Assembly (NCBI RefSeq): GCF_000383955.1
Contig: NZ_KB913013.1
Coordinates: forward strand, 5,289,694-5,353,693
Direction of reading: 5' to 3'
From: Rudanella lutea DSM 19387
GTDB taxonomy: Bacteria > Bacteroidota > Bacteroidia > Cytophagales > Spirosomataceae
Length of the DNA: 64,000 nt
Numbering within the stretch: position 1 is the first letter of the stretch; each line of letters starts with the position of its first letter. This document shows, piece by piece, positions 14,233 through 23,601 of the stretch. Both the position numbers and the translations under genes were made by a program. The notes under the pieces were generated by a model. The model saw only the letters and a list, made by a program, of their open reading frames with translations, was not told the origin of the DNA and searched no databases.

Positions 14233-15435
14233 TTACACCCCCACCGCATCCCGAATAACGGCACAGGCTTCGTGAATCTCGGCCTCGGTAATGATGAGGG
14301 GCGGGGCAATGCGCATTGAGTTGTCGCAAAACAAAAACCAGTCGGTAATGACGCCCCGCTCGATGGCCCGGTCGATGACGGGTTTGAGCACCGCAAACGA
14401 ATCGAACTCAGCCGCCAGCATCAGCCCTTTACCCCGCACGGCCCGAATCGCCGGGATGTCGGCGAGCAACTGCCGGAAAAGCTGCCCTTTGGCTTCGGCC
14501 TGCGCATACAGTTGTTCATTCCGGATCACGTTCAGCGTAGCCAACGAGGCCGCACACGAAACCGGGTGCCCGCCAAACGTAGTGATGTGCCCCAGAATCG
14601 GGTTGTTTTTGAACACCCCCATGACCTCGGGCGAGCTAATGAATGCCCCAATAGGCATGCCGCCCCCCATGCCTTTGGCGCATACCAGTACATCGGGCAC
14701 AACGGGGCCGAAGCCCTCAAACGCCCAAAACGTGCCTGTGCGTCCGAAGCCGGTCTGTATTTCGTCGAAAATCAACAGCGTGCCGGTGTCGGTACAACGC
14801 TGACGGACGGCCTGTAGGTAGGCCGGGTCGGGCACCCGAATACCCGATTCGGCCGAAACAACCTCGATCACGACGGCGGCCGTGCGTTGGCTGATGTGCT
14901 CTACGTCGGGCAGGTGGCCATAGCGGATATGGCGTACATCGGGTAGGAGCGGACGGTAATTACGTTTGAAATTCTCGTCGCCTGAGAGCGACAGAGCCCC
15001 CTGCGTAGCGCCGTGGTAAGCATTGAAACAGCTAATGATTTCGGTACGACCCGTAAACCGTTTGGCTAATTTCATGGCCCCTTCAACGGCCTCGGTGCCT
15101 GAGTTGGTGAAATACACATTGCTCAGTTTGCCGTGTGGGCCCGTGTACGAGCTAAGTGTGTCGGCAATGGCATGGGCGAGCTGTGTTTGGGGCGTCTGTA
15201 CGTATTCGCCGTAGACCATCAGATGCAGGTATTTATCCAGCTGATTCTGAATGGCCTCCAGCACATTCGGATGCCGGTGCCCTACGTTGCTTACACCAAT
15301 GCCCGAAATCAGATCCATGTACCGTTGGCCAGTAGCCGTGTAGAGAAACACCCCCTCGGCGCGCTCAATTTCGAGGGCAAGCGGGAAATCAGAGGTTTGG
15401 GCAACGTGCTGGAAAAATAACTGGCGATGGGTCAT
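14233..15435 (-). CDS. Class III pyridoxal-phosphate aminotransferase
   Basis: A 400-residue cytosolic aminotransferase of the acetylornithine/ornithine/4-aminobutyrate group. Recognisable parts are GIGVSNVGHRHPNVLEAI, YFTNSGTEAVEGAMKLA (phosphate binding), the DEIQTGFGRTGTFWAFE signature and the Schiff-base lysine in LVCAKGMGGGMPIGAF. The exact substrate cannot be settled from sequence. I chose MTHRQLFFQHVAQ at 15435; the open frame extends 25 codons upstream, through a palindrome, and is not believable. It diverges from the exported repeat protein at 15574 across a 138-base gap that holds a large hairpin. Confidence 0.9.
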   Translation of the reverse strand: MTHRQLFFQHVAQTSDFPLALEIERAEGVFLYTATGQRYMDLISGIGVSNVGHRHPNVLEAIQNQLDKYLHLMVYGEYVQTPQTQLAHAIADTLSSYTGPHGKLSNVYFTNSGTEAVEGAMKLAKRFTGRTEIISCFNAYHGATQGALSLSGDENFKRNYRPLLPDVRHIRYGHLPDVEHISQRTAAVVIEVVSAESGIRVPDPAYLQAVRQRCTDTGTLLIFDEIQTGFGRTGTFWAFEGFGPVVPDVLVCAKGMGGGMPIGAFISSPEVMGVFKNNPILGHITTFGGHPVSCAASLATLNVIRNEQLYAQAEAKGQLFRQLLADIPAIRAVRGKGLMLAAEFDSFAVLKPVIDRAIERGVITDWFLFCDNSMRIAPPLIITEAEIHEACAVIRDAVGV

Positions 15436-15453
15436 GTTGTTAATGAATAATGC

Positions 15454-15508
15454 GTACCGAATACTGTGTAATGGGGAATGCTGCCTGCCATTATACAGTA
15501 TTCGGTAC
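15454..15508. repeat. Large hairpin in the divergent gap
   Basis: Twenty-one-base arms (15454-15474 and 15488-15508) with a single mismatch and a 13-base loop. The first 14 bases, gtaccgaatactgt, are perfectly inverted. It lies between two divergent start codons, so it could affect either promoter or leader. Confidence 0.8.
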
Positions 15509-15573
15509 ATCTGTTACAACCCTTTCGGGTCGAAAAGACTCTTGTCTGTAACGAAACCTCAACACCTTCTTTC

Positions 15574-16704
15574 ATGAAAACAGTTCTGCTTGCCCTGTTG
15601 CTATCCATACCTCTTTCTTTGATTGCCCAAAAAACCTCGGTTCCGCTCGATTCCAGCCGCACCACCTTTTCGATATTTCTGCGAGATGGGGGGCAGTACG
15701 TCGGGCGAATTGTGAGTCGAGACAGTCTCAAAGTCGTGGTTCGGCGGCAGGGTGGTGGCCTGTCGTATCTGGCTCCGGCCGATATTACGCGGATTGAACC
15801 GTACCAGTCTGCCGTACGCAACAGGGGCCGTACTACCTACGTCGTAACCCTGACCGATGGCACTGTGTACACGGGTGAAATTCGGGAGCGAACGGAAAGC
15901 CGGGTCGTCATTCGTCGGCGAGGTGGTGAGTCAATTCTGTCGCCCAAAGAGATTGCCCGCATTGAACCCTTGTCCGAAACAGCTCCGGCCGATGTGGTTA
16001 TCCCGACTGCCGGAGGGCCAAACACAAACCCCTCGGCGCGTGGTGAGAACCCATACCCGTGGCTACTCAACAGCCAAACGGCTATTCCGCTCAAGGCCGG
16101 GCAGGTCACCTACCGCAACATTTGGGTGTTGTACAATGAAGTGTCGGTAGGCTTATTCAATTTTCTCACGCTTCGGGCGAGTGTGACGCCCTCCTTCAGT
16201 GGTACAACGTTCTACAACAGCACCTTGTACACCCGACCGGCCGCCGGGCTTAAACTGAGTATTCCGCTGGGGTCGGTGCATATCGGCGGAACCCTGGATT
16301 ATCAATTCTTCGAAGGGTGGCGTTACACACAGTTTAGCAGTCGACGGATGTACCGGCGGCAGCGAACGCTGGGAGGTCTGGTGTCATTCGGAAACACAAG
16401 CCGCAACCTGACCCTCGGCTATACGGCAGTCAAAGCCGATATTGGCGGGGCCGACCGGCGCTCGCTGGATATTGGTTTTGTGGCCCCGCTCGGGCGTCGG
16501 GCATCCCTGATCTGCGACAATCGGGTGCTACTCACGCGGGAGAGCTACTGGGACGGTCATTTTAGTCAGGTTTCAGCGGTTTTTCGGCTCAACCGGGCCC
16601 GGCATGCGTTTGATATTGGCGCACTGATTCCGATTCGCGACGAAGACCGGCTGCGCGTGTTTCCGTTGCCCTACCTCGGGTACAACCTGCGGTTATCGCG
16701 GTAG
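15574..16704 (+). CDS. Exported protein with a tandem beta-repeat and a probable outer-membrane barrel
   Basis: A 376-residue exported protein beginning at MKTVLLALLLSIPLSLIAQ (signal peptide). Residues about 30-120 hold two tandem 45-residue repeats: FSIFLRDGGQYVGRIVSRDS and YVVTLTDGTVYTGEIRERTE, each ending in a conserved (L/S)xxxxIxRIEP, a small beta-domain resembling an SH3-like or Sm-like unit. Residues about 160-376 alternate hydrophobic and polar residues with many aromatic ends (FNFLTLRASVTPSFSG, VHIGGTLDYQFFEG, NLTLGYTAVKADIG), as in outer-membrane barrels. The function is unknown. The alternative upstream frame is rejected because of the strong signal peptide. Confidence 0.75.
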   Translation: MKTVLLALLLSIPLSLIAQKTSVPLDSSRTTFSIFLRDGGQYVGRIVSRDSLKVVVRRQGGGLSYLAPADITRIEPYQSAVRNRGRTTYVVTLTDGTVYTGEIRERTESRVVIRRRGGESILSPKEIARIEPLSETAPADVVIPTAGGPNTNPSARGENPYPWLLNSQTAIPLKAGQVTYRNIWVLYNEVSVGLFNFLTLRASVTPSFSGTTFYNSTLYTRPAAGLKLSIPLGSVHIGGTLDYQFFEGWRYTQFSSRRMYRRQRTLGGLVSFGNTSRNLTLGYTAVKADIGGADRRSLDIGFVAPLGRRASLICDNRVLLTRESYWDGHFSQVSAVFRLNRARHAFDIGALIPIRDEDRLRVFPLPYLGYNLRLSR

Positions 16705-16724: not shown

Positions 16725-17918
16725 CTACACGAAGAAACAGACCGTGCCGCCGACCCAGTCCTTATTTTTGTTGAAATTGACACCGATCATCTCGCCCCGG
16801 CTCAGACGGGCCAAATTGGTCGCCAGAATCGGTTTTTCGGCGGTGTCGGGCCACACGAGCAGCATCCGGATCTCGCATTTCACCAGGCCATCGGGCGATT
16901 GAATCACGGGTTCGTACTGCACCTTCCGTTGCAACAGGAAGTTACCGCGCTGATCGGTGGGAATGGCATCAATGTCGGCGGGTGTTACGTGAATTTTGAC
17001 ACCGGCTCCGGCAAACGAAAACAACGGCTTGAGCACGTAATTTTCCAGATCGGCGGGGGGCGTTTCCAGATCGCTCAGGAAATAGCTTTGGGGTACAAAC
17101 TCACTCTGAAGCAGAGGCAGGGTGTACTTGCTAATCCGGAAAAACCAGTTTGGGTGCCCTACCCACGTCACGTCTACATCGTCGGTGAGGTGAAACTCGG
17201 TCTGCAGGTCGGGGTAGTTATGCAGATCGTCGAAAATCAGCCGGTTATAAATGCGCTTGATGTCGATTCGGCGCCCGTCTTTTTCGTAGTACAATTGCCG
17301 ACCATCTTTCCGGATTTTCGTCAGGCAAACCGGTGCTACACCCAAATACTGCCGGGTGAGTTCAAAATCAATGCGGGTTTTCTGCTGTTCGGGGTAAATC
17401 TCGAGCAGAATCACCTCTTCGGGGTCGCAATCGGCCACAATGGTCTGGCGCAGCAGGTCGAGGTAAGCCGCCCGGTCGAGGCCGTTGAACAACGGTGATA
17501 CCTCGTCGGGGATGGGGTAAAATTGCCGAAACTTATCGGGTAGGTACGCCTGAAATCCGAAGAGCGACGGGAAACCCTGCAATTCAATCAGTTGGGGCTC
17601 CAGCGAGCCGTCGGCGGCCCGGCAAACGGCAAAGTCGACGGCCAGAAAGGTGGTATGCCCGTTTTCGTTGGGTACCCGCTGATCGGCCGGAATAGCCCCC
17701 TCAGTACGGGTTTTAAAGTCGGGTGCGGTAATCACCTCGACAATATCGGCGCAGGCCTGCTTCAGTTTATCGCCGAGGTCTTTCGGGACAAAAACAGGGG
17801 TTTCGGCCACCCGAAAATCGAGCAGGCCGGGCATATCGTTCTGAATCGACTCCAAAAAAGCCCCGTATTGCGCGGGGCTAAAGGCCTGATTGAATACCTG
17901 GCGAATCGGTTGGTGCAT
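16725..17918 (-). CDS. ATP-grasp-like ligase, last gene of the amidoligase cluster
   Basis: A 397-residue cytosolic protein. Two stretches suggest an ATP-grasp fold related to glutathionylspermidine-synthetase-like ligases: EPQLIELQGFPSLFGFQAY near residue 110, and ENYVLKPLFSFAGAGVK with FLLQRKVQYEP near residues 285-330, followed by EIRMLLVW and NLARLSRGEMIGVNFN, which could supply metal- and substrate-binding residues. The closest family is not certain. The start at 17918 (MHQPIRQVF) is preferred over one 20 codons upstream that would overlap the preceding gene. It follows the amidotransferase gene by 19 bases, and it ends 20 bases from a convergent gene. Confidence 0.65.
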   Translation of the reverse strand: MHQPIRQVFNQAFSPAQYGAFLESIQNDMPGLLDFRVAETPVFVPKDLGDKLKQACADIVEVITAPDFKTRTEGAIPADQRVPNENGHTTFLAVDFAVCRAADGSLEPQLIELQGFPSLFGFQAYLPDKFRQFYPIPDEVSPLFNGLDRAAYLDLLRQTIVADCDPEEVILLEIYPEQQKTRIDFELTRQYLGVAPVCLTKIRKDGRQLYYEKDGRRIDIKRIYNRLIFDDLHNYPDLQTEFHLTDDVDVTWVGHPNWFFRISKYTLPLLQSEFVPQSYFLSDLETPPADLENYVLKPLFSFAGAGVKIHVTPADIDAIPTDQRGNFLLQRKVQYEPVIQSPDGLVKCEIRMLLVWPDTAEKPILATNLARLSRGEMIGVNFNKNKDWVGGTVCFFV

Positions 17919-17937
17919 AGGAAATGAGCGGATAAGG

Positions 17938-18771
17938 CTAATACTCGAATGTCGACTGGCGCTGGGTCTGGATGGCATGACGCAGGAAACCCGGCAGTAT
18001 TACCGATTCGGTTAGCTCAATTTTGTCTGGATCTTGTAAGTAAGCCACCATTTCGTCGTACTTGGCCTGTCCATGTACCGACACAATCTGGTCGCGTTTT
18101 TCGTCGGTCATGAAGTAGCGGAGCATCCCCTCGCCGTCGGCTTCGGGGTGAAACTGCGTACCAAAAATTTCGGGTCCGAAACGCACTGCCATCACGGCCC
18201 GGGGCAAATCGACGTGGGGTCGGATTTTTTCCAGACACAGAATCTGTGCACCGATTTCGTCGAATCGCTCCAGATTAGGCTCGGTGAGCTGGTAATCGCG
18301 CGAGTCGACAGCAAAAAATGGTTCGGGTAGGCCGCTGAAAAATGGTTCGGCGTAGCCGTCGTCGGTGCGGTGCATCGGAAAAATACCGAACGAGGTCGAC
18401 CGGCGCTTGCTGATGGTACCGAGGCCCAGGTGCCGGGCAACCAACTGAAACGAGTGGCAGATCAGAAACAAAGGCTTTTTGGGCTCCTGTGTCCGGTTCC
18501 ACGTAAACAACTCGTCGATCAGGGCAAAGTACGGCTCCTCCCAGGCTTCGTTGAGCGGGAGCGGGCTGCCCGGCCCCCCGGTCGAAATGTACGCGTCGTA
18601 GTGGAGACCGGGCAGATGCACCTGATCGGGCGTTTTACCCGCCCGAACATTGAACACATCGAAGTGAAGCGGCACCCGCATTTGGCCTTCCACCAGGCGG
18701 ATAATCTGCTGAATACAACGCATGCCCTCGTTGGCATGGTTGTCATACATATCAAGGATAGCGATTTTCAT
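17938..18771 (-). CDS. Class I glutamine amidotransferase-like protein
   Basis: A 277-residue protein with the class I amidotransferase triad: Cys105 in LFLICHSFQLVARHLG, and His208/Glu210 in FGTQFHPEADGEG. The oxyanion region STGGPGSP (63-70) is present. The usual GxCxG elbow is changed to ICHSF, a variant found in free-standing members. Such enzymes either deliver ammonia from glutamine or hydrolyse gamma-glutamyl bonds. The gene sits 14 bases after the carboxylate-amine ligase and 19 bases before the ATP-grasp-like gene, so it very likely works on the product or substrate of those ligases. Confidence 0.85.
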   Translation of the reverse strand: MKIAILDMYDNHANEGMRCIQQIIRLVEGQMRVPLHFDVFNVRAGKTPDQVHLPGLHYDAYISTGGPGSPLPLNEAWEEPYFALIDELFTWNRTQEPKKPLFLICHSFQLVARHLGLGTISKRRSTSFGIFPMHRTDDGYAEPFFSGLPEPFFAVDSRDYQLTEPNLERFDEIGAQILCLEKIRPHVDLPRAVMAVRFGPEIFGTQFHPEADGEGMLRYFMTDEKRDQIVSVHGQAKYDEMVAYLQDPDKIELTESVILPGFLRHAIQTQRQSTFEY

Positions 18772-18785
18772 CTCACTTTTCCTAA

Positions 18786-19886
18786 CTACCTCACGCCGAA
18801 GGAAGTTTCCGCAACGATGTAATCCACAACCTGTTTGAGGTCGCCGGTTTGGTTGAAAACCGCCAGTTGTCGGTCGGCGCCGGTACCCATTTCGAGCATC
18901 TTAAGCACGTATTCGCACTCCTGCCGGCTACCCAGTTCATCCATCACATCGTCGATAAAATCGAGCAATTCATGGATCAGGCTGTGCGTCGGTACTTCTT
19001 CCTGCTTGCCAAAGTCGATGAGTTTGCCTTCAATGCCGTACCGGGCGGCCCGCCATTTGTTTTCGCTGATTAAAATGCGCCGGTAAGGTCTGAAATTGAG
19101 GTTTTGCCGGTGCAGTTTAGATATTTTAGCGACCAGTGCCTGCATGATAGCAGCCAGACAAACCGTTTCGTCGACGCGCATAGGCACGTCACAAATTCGG
19201 AACTCGATGGTGTCGAAAAACGGGTGCAACCGGATGTCCCACCAGATTTTCTTGCCGTTGTCGATACAGCCCGTTTTCACCAGCAGAGCAATGTACTCGT
19301 CGTACTCGGCCGCCGACGAGAAAAAATCGGGGATACCCGTGCGCGGAAACTTGTCGAATACCTTGGAGCGGTACGACTTAAAACCGGTGTTGCGCCCGCG
19401 CCAGAACGGCGAATTGGTCGACAGGGCGTAGATATGGGGCAAAAAGTAGCGCACGGCGTTCATGATCTGAATGCCTTCGTTACGGCTGCTGATGCCCACG
19501 TGTACGTGCAGGCCGAAAATCAGGTTCGACCGGGCCACGTCGCGCATTTCTTCAATCAGCTGATCGTAGCGCTCGTTGGGGGTGATGAGTTGCGCCTGCC
19601 AGTCGGAGAAGGGGTGCGTACCGGCGGCTGCCACGTTCAGGTTCTGCTTGTCGGCCAGTTCGATAATCTCGCGCCGGAGGTAGGTCACTTCCTGCCGGGC
19701 TTCGTGAATGTTGTGGCAAATATTGGTGCCTACCTCCACCACAGCCTGGTGCATTTCGGCCTTTACGCGCTCCTGAAGCACGATTTTGCCTCCTTCGACC
19801 AGCTTCGACATGTGCGACCGAAGCTCGCGGGTTACGGGGTCAATGGTCTGGAATTCTTCCTCAATACCAAGCGTAAATACGTGCAT
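18786..19886 (-). CDS. Carboxylate-amine ligase of the GCS2/YbdK family
   Basis: A 366-residue glutamine-synthetase-fold enzyme that joins a carboxylate to an amine using ATP, as in gamma-glutamylcysteine synthetase type 2. The family start FTLGIEEEFQTIDP is at residues 4-17. Further motifs are AEMHQAVVEVGTNIC, FGLHVHVGI, LSTNSPFWRGRNTGFKSYR and WWDIRLHPFFDTIEFRICD. The metal-binding glutamates and histidines appear intact. The gene is second in the predicted ligase operon; a 170-base gap with a long hairpin separates it from the upstream ATP-grasp gene. The amine and acid substrates are unknown. Confidence 0.93.
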   Translation of the reverse strand: MHVFTLGIEEEFQTIDPVTRELRSHMSKLVEGGKIVLQERVKAEMHQAVVEVGTNICHNIHEARQEVTYLRREIIELADKQNLNVAAAGTHPFSDWQAQLITPNERYDQLIEEMRDVARSNLIFGLHVHVGISSRNEGIQIMNAVRYFLPHIYALSTNSPFWRGRNTGFKSYRSKVFDKFPRTGIPDFFSSAAEYDEYIALLVKTGCIDNGKKIWWDIRLHPFFDTIEFRICDVPMRVDETVCLAAIMQALVAKISKLHRQNLNFRPYRRILISENKWRAARYGIEGKLIDFGKQEEVPTHSLIHELLDFIDDVMDELGSRQECEYVLKMLEMGTGADRQLAVFNQTGDLKQVVDYIVAETSFGVR

Positions 19887-19943
19887 TCAATGGGTTGGTT
19901 TAAAGGTCAGTTGATGGTAAGGTTCTGGGGACTTAGCTGAATG

Positions 19944-20040
19944 GAATGTATAATGAACAGTGTAAAATGTATAACGAAAAAGTTGATTATCAGCTGATAA
20001 GTCAATTATTCATTATGCATTTTACATTGTTCATTCACAT
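19944..20040. repeat. Long imperfect palindrome inside the amidoligase operon
   Basis: Arms of about 45-50 bases are centred on the perfect palindrome ttatcagctgataa (19987-20000). Outer words are aatgaacagtgtaaaatgtat on the left (20 bases taken from about 19953) and its imperfect complement on the right. It lies between the ATP-grasp and GCS2 genes and could attenuate or process the transcript. Part of its sequence recurs at 27301-27346. Confidence 0.8.
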
Positions 20041-20056
20041 AAACCACAAAACCTCT

Positions 20057-21130
20057 TTACTTTTTCGCCTTCTTAGGGGCGGCTTTATCGGCCTTTGGGG
20101 CCTCGGCTTTTTTCGCCTTGGGTTTGGCTTCTTGGGTGGGTTTGCTGCTCTCGGCCGGAGTCTGAACGCCCACCGGGCCTGCACCAGCCGTTACTGAGCC
20201 CCGTACAAACGTACCCCAGGTGAGGTTGTCTTTGCCTGCCTGCACCCGCTTAGCCCGCTCGATAGCCATATTGGCGGCAGCTTCTACCACCCACTCGAAG
20301 TTTTCCTGACCCACCGAGTTTACGTCGGCATCGGGAGCAGGGTTGCAGAAGTCGATGGCGATAGGCACCCCATTACGCACGGCAAACTCCACCGTGTTGA
20401 AGTCGTACCCGAGGGCGTGGTTGAGCTTCAGCACGTAGTCTTTCATGGTTTCGAGGAGCTTCTTGCCCGCATCGCCCGTGGTTTTCATCTCGGCGGCATA
20501 GCGCAGGTGATGGGGGTTGCGCGGCTCGTAGGGCATAATCCGGACGTCTTTGCCGCCAATGCAGTAGCACCGGAAGTAGTCTTCAAAGTCGATGGCTTCC
20601 TGATAGAGCATCACGAGTTGCCCGGTCTCGTCGTAAGCCCGGAACATCTGCTCAGGGTTGTCTACCTTGTACACGCTTTTCCAGCCTCCGCCCGCGTGGG
20701 GTTTCATGAACGCCGGGAAACCGATATGCTCGAAAATGGCGTCCCAGTTCATGTGGCCGAGGTTACGGAACGAGTTGTGGTTCGTATCGTCGGGGCGCTC
20801 TTTGGAGGGCAGCAGAATGGTTTTGGGTACCGGAACACCCAGCTGAACGGCCAGGGCATTGTTGAAAAACTTCTCGTCGGCGGCCCACCAGAACGGGTTG
20901 TTGATAACGGCCGTGCCGGTAAGGGCGGCATTTTTCAGGAACGCCTTGTAGAACGGAACATCCTGCGAAATGCGGTCGATAATAACGGCGTAGTCGGTCG
21001 GGACGCTTTGCTCCACGCGGTCGATAAAGACAAACTCGGCCTTGAAATCGCTTTGTTTTTCGTTGACGCGCTCGACAAAGGCTTGCGGGAACGTGTTTTC
21101 CTGACCGAACAGTATGCCTATTTTTTTCAT
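20057..21130 (-). CDS. ATP-grasp ligase with a Lys/Ala/Pro-rich tail
   Basis: A 357-residue protein with the ATP-grasp layout of RimK/D-Ala-D-Ala-ligase-type enzymes. Seen are an N-terminal pre-ATP-grasp domain (IGILFGQENTFPQAF), Lys143 and the glycine loop 147-149 in FPAFMKPHAGGGWKSVY, Glu178 in LYQEAIDFEDYF, and metal-ligand candidates Glu248 and Asp260/Asn263 in TVEFAVRNGVPIAIDFCNP. Residues about 320-357 are a disordered Lys/Ala/Pro-rich tail (EAKPKAKKAEAPKADKAA), unusual for the family. It begins the ligase part of the cluster. The reaction would form an amide bond through an acyl phosphate; substrates are unknown. Confidence 0.85.
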   Translation of the reverse strand: MKKIGILFGQENTFPQAFVERVNEKQSDFKAEFVFIDRVEQSVPTDYAVIIDRISQDVPFYKAFLKNAALTGTAVINNPFWWAADEKFFNNALAVQLGVPVPKTILLPSKERPDDTNHNSFRNLGHMNWDAIFEHIGFPAFMKPHAGGGWKSVYKVDNPEQMFRAYDETGQLVMLYQEAIDFEDYFRCYCIGGKDVRIMPYEPRNPHHLRYAAEMKTTGDAGKKLLETMKDYVLKLNHALGYDFNTVEFAVRNGVPIAIDFCNPAPDADVNSVGQENFEWVVEAAANMAIERAKRVQAGKDNLTWGTFVRGSVTAGAGPVGVQTPAESSKPTQEAKPKAKKAEAPKADKAAPKKAKK

Positions 21131-21286
21131 AGTTTGTAGCAGACGGGTGTGTCTGATTGTTTTTAGGTTGTTTGTGTGTAACCTCAGTTATACTCATGCC
21201 CGAAGGCGGGGCAAAAATGCCGTTTTTGTCCCGTTACCACAACCCCCAGAATAACTTGGCGGTATGTTGCGGGTAGCAGGAGGCAA

Positions 21287-21769
21287 TTAAAGCAGCTTTT
21301 GCAGGTGATGTTCCATGTGTCCCACGTAGTCTTCAATAAGCCACGACAGCGTGCGTGGAGGGCCATCGCTACCTTTTACCTGCACCTTGCGCTGCCGGGC
21401 GGCTTCGGGTAAATCGCTGACAACGTGGACAATTTGCCGGTTCAGGGCCTGCCAAAGCGTAAGCAAATGATCGAGCGGGAGGTTTTGGTAATGGTTGGTA
21501 ACGACCAGCTCGTTTTGCCGGTACGAGGCAAACGTGTACGGCTCCGGCCCAAACTGAGCCTCATTAAATCGTTTCAGGTTGTTCAGGGCCGAGTCGATCA
21601 GGTGGCCCAGCAGTTGTTTCCGCGACCATTTGCCGGGTTTCATGTCCAGCAGCGTTTCTTCGGGCAGAGCCGAGAGTTGCGCCGGAACATCCTGAATATA
21701 CCCAGTAAGCCGCGAGAGAGCCCCTTCGAGCGTTGAGTCGGCAGTGGTATAATGCTGATTTGGCCACAT
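21287..21769 (-). CDS. DinB/YfiT-fold putative metal-dependent enzyme
   Basis: A 160-residue four-helix-bundle protein of the DinB superfamily. The usual three metal-binding histidines are visible: His56 in KQLLGHLIDSALNNL, and His151 and His155 in EDYVGHMEHHLQKLL. PGKWSRKQLLGHL is the typical first motif. Some members are thiol-dependent transferases acting with mycothiol, bacillithiol or glutathione. That is relevant because the neighbouring genes could make a gamma-glutamyl-type small molecule, but this link is inference. It lies 156 bases upstream of the ATP-grasp gene on the same strand. Confidence 0.85.
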   Translation of the reverse strand: MWPNQHYTTADSTLEGALSRLTGYIQDVPAQLSALPEETLLDMKPGKWSRKQLLGHLIDSALNNLKRFNEAQFGPEPYTFASYRQNELVVTNHYQNLPLDHLLTLWQALNRQIVHVVSDLPEAARQRKVQVKGSDGPPRTLSWLIEDYVGHMEHHLQKLL

Positions 21770-21860
21770 AGCAGGGTACGTTTAAGGTGTATGGTTTAGT
21801 TGTAAGGCGTTTGGGAGGCTGACCGAGGGGCGGGCCAAAACAGTCGTGCTCACCCCTCGG

Positions 21861-22565
21861 TCAGATCATGTTCAGATAGCGCGGAAACATGCTGCGCCAA
21901 ACGGGCCAGTCGTGCTCACCCCAGGGCACTACGTCGAGCCAGTGGGGAATGTTCTTACGACCCAGAATACCGGCCATTTCGAAATTTGAGCCCTTGCAGA
22001 AATCATGTTCCGACGTACCCAGCACGATGTTCATCTTGTAAAACTCGTCGTTGTGGGCGTTCGGAATAAAGTCGGGCGGGTTGTTGAAGTAGACGTTGTC
22101 GTCGTAGTATCCATCCATAAACGACCGAATGTCAAATTTGGCCCCCATCGAAAAGAGGTGGCCTACCTGATCGGGGTGCCGGAACGCGAAGTTGAGGGCC
22201 TGAAACCCGCCGAAGCTGCACCCGGCTACCCCAATTTTGCCCGTGTTGGTTTCGCGCTGAATGTACGGCACCAGCTCTTCGCTCAGGAACCGGTCGTACA
22301 GCACGTGGTTCCAGATGCGGGCACCGGGGTGGAGGTGTTTGGCATACCAGCTGTCGCGGTCAACGCTGTCGATGCAGTATAGTTTGACCCGGCCCGAGTT
22401 GATGTGCGCGCTCACCGCGTCGATCAGTTTAAAATCGCTCGCTTCGTAAAAACGGCCCATCGTGGTCGGAAACACCAGAATAGGGTACCCCCAGTTGCCG
22501 TAAACGAGCATTTCGAGGGTTCGGTTGAGATGGTGCGAGTAGTAAGTGCGGTATTCCTGATGCAA
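21861..22565 (-). CDS. Cytosolic esterase of the alpha/beta-hydrolase fold (COG4947-like)
   Basis: A 234-residue serine hydrolase without a signal peptide. The nucleophile elbow is GVAGCSFGGFQAL with Ser117, and the catalytic histidine is probably His218 in VVPWGEHDWPVW. The N-terminal part, RTLEMLVYGNWGYPILVFPT, resembles proteins annotated as COG4947 esterases. It is the first gene of the minus-strand run that continues with the DinB protein and the ligases, with 91 bases to the next gene, so co-transcription is plausible. Substrate unknown; it may release or trim the ligase product. Confidence 0.85.
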   Translation of the reverse strand: MHQEYRTYYSHHLNRTLEMLVYGNWGYPILVFPTTMGRFYEASDFKLIDAVSAHINSGRVKLYCIDSVDRDSWYAKHLHPGARIWNHVLYDRFLSEELVPYIQRETNTGKIGVAGCSFGGFQALNFAFRHPDQVGHLFSMGAKFDIRSFMDGYYDDNVYFNNPPDFIPNAHNDEFYKMNIVLGTSEHDFCKGSNFEMAGILGRKNIPHWLDVVPWGEHDWPVWRSMFPRYLNMI

Positions 22566-22752
22566 AACGATGATGAGTTAAGTTGTGATGAAATACGCCA
22601 AAACACCGGTAAGCAAGGGCGGGTTTTGCGCGTGGTTTGCGATTGGAATTTAGTTAAAATCCTTACATGCAGTGCTACCTGACCCGTTTACGTCTAAAAA
22701 AGCCCTTATTTTGCGGGTTGTGCGGAGCTTATTTTTGTTTATCTATTTCCTT

Positions 22753-23601
22753 ATGGCCGATCCCACCCCGGCATTTTCGACGACTTCAGTGACCGTCGTC
22801 CGTGACGAATCGTTGTACTCTGTGCCCCTTAATCGGGCTGTGCAACTCGATATTATTCTGCCCCCTGCCTACAACGCCCACGCCCCCGAACCGTACCCGG
22901 TGCTGTACCTCAACGACGGGCAGGACCTCCCCCGGCTGCGGCTTGCCGAGGTGCTCGATTCGCTCTATGCCCAACAGGCCGTCCGGCCGTTTGTGCTGGT
23001 GGCCGTCCATACCCATGCCGACCGGATTCAGGAGTACGGCACGGCGGCCCAGGCCGATTACATGAAGCGTGGGAGCAAAGCCGGCTTGTACACCGACTTT
23101 GTACTGACCGAGCTGCTGCCCCATATCCATACCCATTACCGGGTAAGCGCAGCACCGGGGCAGGCTGCTTTTGCCGGGTTTTCGCTCGGTGGTTTGTCGG
23201 CATTTGACATTGTTTTTCATCACCCCGAACACTTCAGCCGGGCGGGTGTGTTTTCGGGCTCGTTCTGGTGGCGGAGCAAGGCGTTCAGCAGTGCCTACGA
23301 CGACGATACTGACCGGATTATGCACACCCTGGTGCGGCAGGGACGCTACACCCCCGGCACACAATTCTGGCTGCAAACCGGCACCCTCGACGAAACAAGC
23401 GACCGTAACAACAACGGTGTCATCGACTCCATCGACGACACCCTCGACCTGATTGCTGAGCTGGAAAAGATAGGCTACCAACGCGAAAAGCCGGGTATCG
23501 CGGGGAATGTGCGCTACGTAGAGGTTGAAGGGGGCCACCATAACCCCGAAACCTGGGGAGCTATTATGCCGGATTTTCTGACGTGGGCGTTTGGCCGGTA
23601 A
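22753..23601 (+). CDS. Esterase of the enterochelin-esterase-like family, divergent from the ligase cluster
   Basis: A serine hydrolase of 282 residues from ATG 22753 (MADPTPAFSTTSV), or 309 from ATG 22672. The longer form would add a hydrophobic stretch (VVRSLFLFIYFLM) that could be a signal anchor, so location depends on the start. The nucleophile elbow is AFAGFSLGGLSAFD, a likely histidine lies in VEGGHHNPETW, and the fold start is RAVQLDIILPPAYN. DRNNNGVIDSIDD looks like an EF-hand-type calcium loop. It is transcribed divergently from the COG4947-like esterase and may belong to the same pathway. Confidence 0.85.
   Translation: MADPTPAFSTTSVTVVRDESLYSVPLNRAVQLDIILPPAYNAHAPEPYPVLYLNDGQDLPRLRLAEVLDSLYAQQAVRPFVLVAVHTHADRIQEYGTAAQADYMKRGSKAGLYTDFVLTELLPHIHTHYRVSAAPGQAAFAGFSLGGLSAFDIVFHHPEHFSRAGVFSGSFWWRSKAFSSAYDDDTDRIMHTLVRQGRYTPGTQFWLQTGTLDETSDRNNNGVIDSIDDTLDLIAELEKIGYQREKPGIAGNVRYVEVEGGHHNPETWGAIMPDFLTWAFGR

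Follow-up and report, generated by a model that had tools for sequence, protein, structure and literature searches.

An operon for amide formation and amide or ester cleavage, conserved in Rudanella lutea and other Bacteroidota: a candidate module for a small peptide-type metabolite

A set of genes encoding amide-forming ligases, a glutamine amidotransferase (GATase)-like enzyme and esterases forms a conserved operon in the genome of Rudanella lutea DSM 19387. The operon lies in a stretch of 64,000 nucleotides (the window; positions 5289694-5353693 of contig 1, 6.5 Mb genome), and its genes, here called E2, E, A, G, T and B, are gained and lost together across the phylum. A first-pass annotation of this DNA had proposed an operon whose enzymes form amides and cut amides or esters, and that proposal is borne out. 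We consider it fairly probable that the operon, minus its DinB gene (D), serves as the main module of a conserved pathway for making and turning over a small peptide-type metabolite. The steps would be like those for glutathione and its polyamine conjugates. All seven open reading frames (ORFs) described earlier, including the divergent second esterase, were found in the window by an ORF check, and Pfam confirms the GCS2, class I GATase, DinB and two esterase assignments.

E2, 22672..23601, plus strand: PF00756 esterase, enterochelin esterase-like, divergent (Pfam 94.1 bits)
E, 21861..22565, minus strand: PF00756-type esterase, first in the conserved order, TTG start (Pfam 44.8 bits)
D, 21287..21769, minus strand: DinB_2 / YfiT-like protein, a local insertion (Pfam DinB_2 41.8 bits)
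A, 20057..21130, minus strand: ATP-grasp ligase, distantly RimK-like, with a Lys/Ala-rich C-terminal tail (TIGR00768 37.4 bits)
G, 18786..19886, minus strand: GCS2 / YbdK-type carboxylate-amine ligase (Pfam GCS2, PF04107, 226.4 bits)
T, 17938..18771, minus strand: stand-alone class I GATase-like hydrolase or amidotransferase (PF00117 33.1 bits)
B, 16725..17918, minus strand: protein of the glutathionylspermidine synthetase / eukaryotic glutathione synthetase / YgiC fold, placed only by structure
C, 4008653-4009864 of contig 1 of the source genome: ATP-grasp protein, its gene preceded by those for a PF00756 esterase and an M17 aminopeptidase; M17 and C together span 4008653-4011394

On the minus strand the order is E, D, A, G, T, B, with E2 divergent beside E. 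The gaps of 14 bases (G to T) and 19 bases (T to B) given by the first-pass annotation are right provided that B starts at 17918; the longest B ORF begins at 17978 and overlaps T. The start column of 17918 is common to 22 of 25 aligned B homologues, in which starts were chosen by script.

Conservation and co-occurrence of the operon genes

Searches with A, B, G, T and E covered one common set of 247 genomes of the phylum; family labels such as f1 and f2 were assigned by the search tool. Weak rows were dropped before counting (3 A rows at or below 22.5 bits, 7 G rows at or below 26.4, 12 T rows at or below 34.7, and E rows below 98). With strong scores, A is present in 86 genomes, B in 73, G in 79 and T in 59. 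A and B occur together in 70 genomes against 25.4 expected (42 pairs on one strand within 4.5 kb), A and G in 70 against 27.5 (46 such pairs), and A and T in 58 against 20.5 (41 such pairs). E lies on the same strand within 2.5 kb of A in 43 of the 86 A genomes. The homologues are not scattered without order, the finding that the first-pass annotation had set against its own reading: at least one other member lies on the same strand within 4.5 kb of A in 63/86 A genomes. E, A, G, T and B stand together in 22/86 A genomes belonging to seven families, while 8 A genomes group E-A-G-B and 13 group A, X and T, with or without E. X is a ligase that replaces B in other lineages. It was counted only above 500 bits, which leaves out a 281-bit match in genome G137, where B is present as well; other matches reach at most 44 bits.

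The genes also come and go together within families. Counting only the A-negative genomes printed in the result tables, G, T, B and C are found in 8/8 A-positive genomes of f16 and in none of the 6 A-negative genomes seen, and G, T and B in 6/6 A-positive and 1/19 A-negative genomes of f7. In f22, f24, f27, f28 and other families the genes are mostly scattered yet co-present. Within the genus, B is found in 4/4 genomes, once as a fragment; one genus member (G248) has G-T-B and no A on that contig.

A further 80 named loci, the best 80 of 582 confirmed relatives, some of them on short contigs, carry Bacteroidota-type names (including Stygiobacter; taxonomy from titles only). The closest named A matches among them are from Spirosoma and Fibrella. 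E-A-G-T-B occurs in 51 of the 80, three with DinB inside, and E2 is divergent beside E in 45 of these 51, so the divergent esterase belongs to the conserved set. Of the six-gene order that the first-pass annotation had suggested looking for in other Bacteroidota, E-A-G-T-B is conserved; DinB is present in only 4/80 named loci and in the genus member G247. DinB was therefore rejected as a core member. D itself scores 46.2 bits against the YfiT bacillithiol transferase model NF009807, under the cut-off of 160. In some loci of Fibrella, Fibrivirga and Spirosoma A lacks G-T-B in the fetched flank, and the operon seems to be splitting in this group (observations on L081, L082, L084, L123 and L228).

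Families, folds and conserved residues

Two ATP-grasp-type genes had been claimed for the operon, and neither window copy, A or B, matches a Pfam family at E≤0.01. A is RimK-like below cut-off (37.4 bits to the NCBIfam RimK family TIGR00768, cut-off 143.4), and B is assigned by structure. Residues K143, E248, D260 and N263 of A are kept in 123/124 aligned rows (in these residue alignments, rows include copies from the same genome). The Lys/Ala-rich C-terminal tail of A varies in length among several lineages and is absent in others; this observation covers the window copy and L061, L005, L015, L016, L063 and L066. G scores 566.6 bits against PRK13515 (NF010039; cut-off 371), and its relative in the PDB is YbdK (1r8g, E=6e-52). 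In family f24 an aromatic amino acid lyase gene directly follows A in L171 and L178 and lies about 460 bases after it in L172; the L178 lyase is histidine ammonia-lyase (HutH; 683.7 bits to TIGR01225). G adjoins a serine carboxypeptidase (S10 peptidase) gene in L171 and L178. Gene fusions and neighbours seen in no more than two families (SSF symporter, HutH, S10 peptidase, Amidohydro_3) were excluded as evidence.

Structure comparison places B over its full length in the fold of glutathionylspermidine synthetase and YgiC/YjfC, which is also the fold of eukaryotic glutathione synthetase. Identity to YgiC/YjfC and glutathionylspermidine synthetase is 16% or less, and by sequence alone the B profile reaches only YgiC (E=0.04). 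The GSP_synth Pfam model does not match the window B, and one of three homologues scanned scores 18.2 bits against a gathering score of 29.3. The relation between B and X is drawn from a solved relative, 3n6x, instead of from profile similarity. In one genome B and an SSF sodium:solute symporter form a single in-frame fusion (L162:4637-7240, plus strand), and in L163, from the same family as the L162 genome, B is adjacent to a related SSF symporter. In L165, L166 and L170, from two families with a scattered operon, B is directly behind an Amidohydro_3 gene.

T passes the PF00117 gathering score (33.1 vs 22.8 bits), and its Cys105, His208 and Glu210 are kept in 83/83 aligned rows. The predicted model (predicted local distance difference test, pLDDT, 93.5) matches class I GATase-fold proteins: TM1158 (22.6), homoserine transsuccinylase (21.7), DnfC (21.3) and Arabidopsis gamma-glutamyl peptidase 1 (21.0). 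Genomes G055 and G093 carry, in place of T between G and B, a gene for an M29 metallopeptidase-like protein (E=4.7e-15 and 2.4e-14). Close copies of it (above 450 bits) occur in 3 of the 247 genomes, all with B and without T, and weaker relatives are widespread. A peptide-cutting role of T is weakly favoured, because the M29-like gene holds the T slot. In the esterases, S171 and H290 of E2 are kept in 76/76 aligned rows and S117 and H218 of E in 84/85. A hydrolase gene recurs in six loci (L109, L120, L132, L135, L138, L141); it lies between E and A in both loci displayed (L132, L138), and the L132 protein is proline-iminopeptidase-like below cut-offs.

In several loci the gene for the ATP-grasp protein C stands next to those of the operon. 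With a threshold of 280 bits (the best match below it scores 67), C is present in 52/247 genomes, all 52 with A. PF13535 was detected in two copies scanned, and the copy of the source genome has no Pfam match. Among 20 fetched C neighbourhoods, esterase-M17-C was found in 6 (f1, f2, f7, f8, f42) and esterase-C in 2; the remaining displayed neighbourhoods have neither esterase nor M17 before C, and the automatic ORF choice left C undisplayed in two of the 20 (L218, L219). In f6, M17 and C precede E-A-G-T-B in one direction in 3/3 genomes viewed, with the esterase in front in 2.

Other genes near the operon were also inspected. A class III aminotransferase of argD/putrescine-transaminase type, under the cut-offs shown, is encoded at 14233-15510 (minus strand). 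Related genes were seen in 19 fetched loci, whose titles name Dyadobacter, Larkinella and the like; in L097, L119 and L125 the gene immediately follows B. Those of L109, L132, L138 and L148 are just 31-33% identical to the L107 copy. A 408-residue protein with no Pfam family (15478-16704, plus strand) is convergent with B. No defence system was matched by PADLOC at E≤0.01 among 8 proteins.

Proposed pathway and competing explanations

Families and folds suggest the following steps. G would make a gamma-glutamyl or similar side-chain amide, and A, in many genomes along with the separately encoded C, would extend the product using ATP. B, or X elsewhere, may activate a carboxylate for coupling to an amine, in the manner of YgiC/YjfC and glutathionylspermidine synthetase. 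Cleavage of peptide bonds in maturation or recycling would fall to T and to the second module's M17 aminopeptidase, and the PF00756 esterases may have an ester or thioester form, or a related conjugate, as their substrate. A small peptide conjugate is favoured because three to four amide-forming ligases are combined with a GATase-like enzyme, aminopeptidases and esterases, and the tightest operons have little room for a precursor gene. A more specific version, which we put forward as tentative and doubtful in its full detail, is that Bacteroidota make an undescribed family of gamma-glutamyl peptide-amine conjugates, a bacterial counterpart of glutathionylspermidine or trypanothione, through two modules (E2 divergent to E-A-G-T-B, plus esterase-M17-C), the last ligase being swapped between the B and X subfamilies of one superfamily.

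Several observations weigh against the conserved peptide pathway. G is absent in 13 A+B or A+X genomes (4/4 A genomes of f8, G212, and 8/13 X genomes), so a gamma-glutamyl start would not be universal. T is absent in 25/70 A+B genomes and C in 34/86 A genomes, 23/86 A genomes have no other member within 4.5 kb of A, and B and G occur without an A match in three genomes (G144, G154, G220). The profile comparison of B with X is very weak (hhalign probability 2%), and the fold matches of T are near ties that do not separate peptidase from amidotransferase. The hypergeometric value for A and B, 9e-42, ignores phylogeny and carries no correction for it. The absence of G and of T from some genomes points to A with either B or X as the core, and the product may differ among genomes.

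Canonical glutathione synthesis (GshA plus GshB) was rejected. GshB was not found genome-wide, and the only GSH-S_ATP (PF02955) match is the ribosomal S6 RimK, identified by PRK10446 (352.6 bits over a cut-off of 331). The operon shares with that route a GCS2-family enzyme (G) and, in B, the eukaryotic glutathione synthetase fold. It differs in the missing GshB, the extra ATP-grasp A and the G-less genomes. The first-pass statement that this is not canonical glutathione synthesis therefore stands, with a contrast made less sharp by the fold of B. A broader low-molecular-weight thiol pathway was also weighed, in which G would make gamma-Glu-Cys, A or C would complete a tripeptide and B would add an amine; T and M17 would degrade the product as gamma-glutamyl peptidase and Cys-Gly dipeptidase, and the esterases would resemble S-formylglutathione hydrolase. 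We regard it as unlikely. The source genome encodes BshC (429.9 vs a cut-off of 265.8 bits); since BshC is encoded and GshB was not found, bacillithiol is probably its thiol. The absence of G from 13 genomes and the rarity of DinB, the candidate thiol-transferase, count against it as well, and the residues that follow the conserved ELQ of B differ from the eukaryotic glutathione synthetase motif. The thiol-like product suggested earlier found no direct evidence, and BshC points to bacillithiol as the thiol of this genome.

Two further explanations concern other uses of the same enzymes. Ligases could build a compatible-solute dipeptide like N-acetylglutaminylglutamine amide (NAGGN), with T amidating its end via glutamine ammonia and the aminopeptidase recycling it at falling osmolarity. 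Carbamoyl phosphate synthetase is a case in which a class I GATase serves an ATP-grasp partner, and the Cys-His-Glu set of T is intact in all aligned rows. The named carriers include genera of presumably soil or freshwater bacteria, which tells against an osmoprotectant. Known NAGGN operons pair the AsnO amidotransferase with the Ngg ligase and a glutamyl aminopeptidase, as described in the passages used here (PMC8070244). T, however, is absent from the genomes noted above, its slot is M29 peptidase-like in two genomes, and the N-acetylglutaminylglutamine synthetase model TIGR03103 gives no match to A or B at E≤0.01; we judge this explanation quite improbable. Protein tagging or ribosomal-peptide modification, as in RimK, pupylation and graspetides, is very improbable. 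A is distantly RimK-like, and the Pup ligase is related to gamma-glutamylcysteine synthetases according to passages of PMC2588565. Nevertheless, all four inter-match gaps are at most 75 bases in 6/22 complete operons, leaving little room for a precursor; no recurrent precursor candidate stood out among the flanking ORFs scanned, all 80-90 residues or longer with shorter ones left out, and the genome has a separate S6 RimK.

Relation to known systems and significance

The peptide-conjugate pathway has relatives among known systems. YgiC/YjfC and glutathionylspermidine synthetase of Escherichia coli are peptide-polyamine ligases with the fold of B. B differs from them in its low identity, its lack of a Pfam match and its place beside GCS2, ATP-grasp, GATase-like and esterase genes in one operon, and polyamine ligation by B is only putative. 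The NAGGN operon, asnO-ngg-aminopeptidase, makes an osmoprotectant dipeptide and likewise combines a peptide ligase, a glutamine amidotransferase-like enzyme and an aminopeptidase, as far as the passages of PMC8070244 describe it. It may serve as a working parallel for the proposed pathway, different in that its amidotransferase is of the asparagine-synthetase type and its ligase model leaves A and B unmatched. GCS-like ligases beside GATase-like thiol peptidases have been predicted to make glutathione or related peptide metabolites (Iyer et al., 2008; PMC2588565), so the general idea is already in print. In the passages considered, the likeness is a carboxylate-amine ligase adjoining a GATase-like thiol peptidase; those neighbourhoods involve a CJD_1902-type ligase family in proteobacteria (with the GATase-like protein) and firmicutes (with a cyclotransferase), and A, B or X and the esterases are not mentioned there. 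No description of the present operon was found in the portions of the literature covered, and an earlier mention is possible.

Collectively, the first-pass interpretation is partly supported: its core idea holds, and its DinB and thiol links are weak. What the analysis adds is a smallest set, made up of A with either B or X, an assignment of B to a structural family, and a partner, C, which is mostly unlinked and often accompanied by M17 and an esterase. A is carried by about a third of the sampled phylum genomes (86/247), almost all of which also have B or X. The product of the operon, if found, would be a new conjugated peptide in bacterial metabolism.

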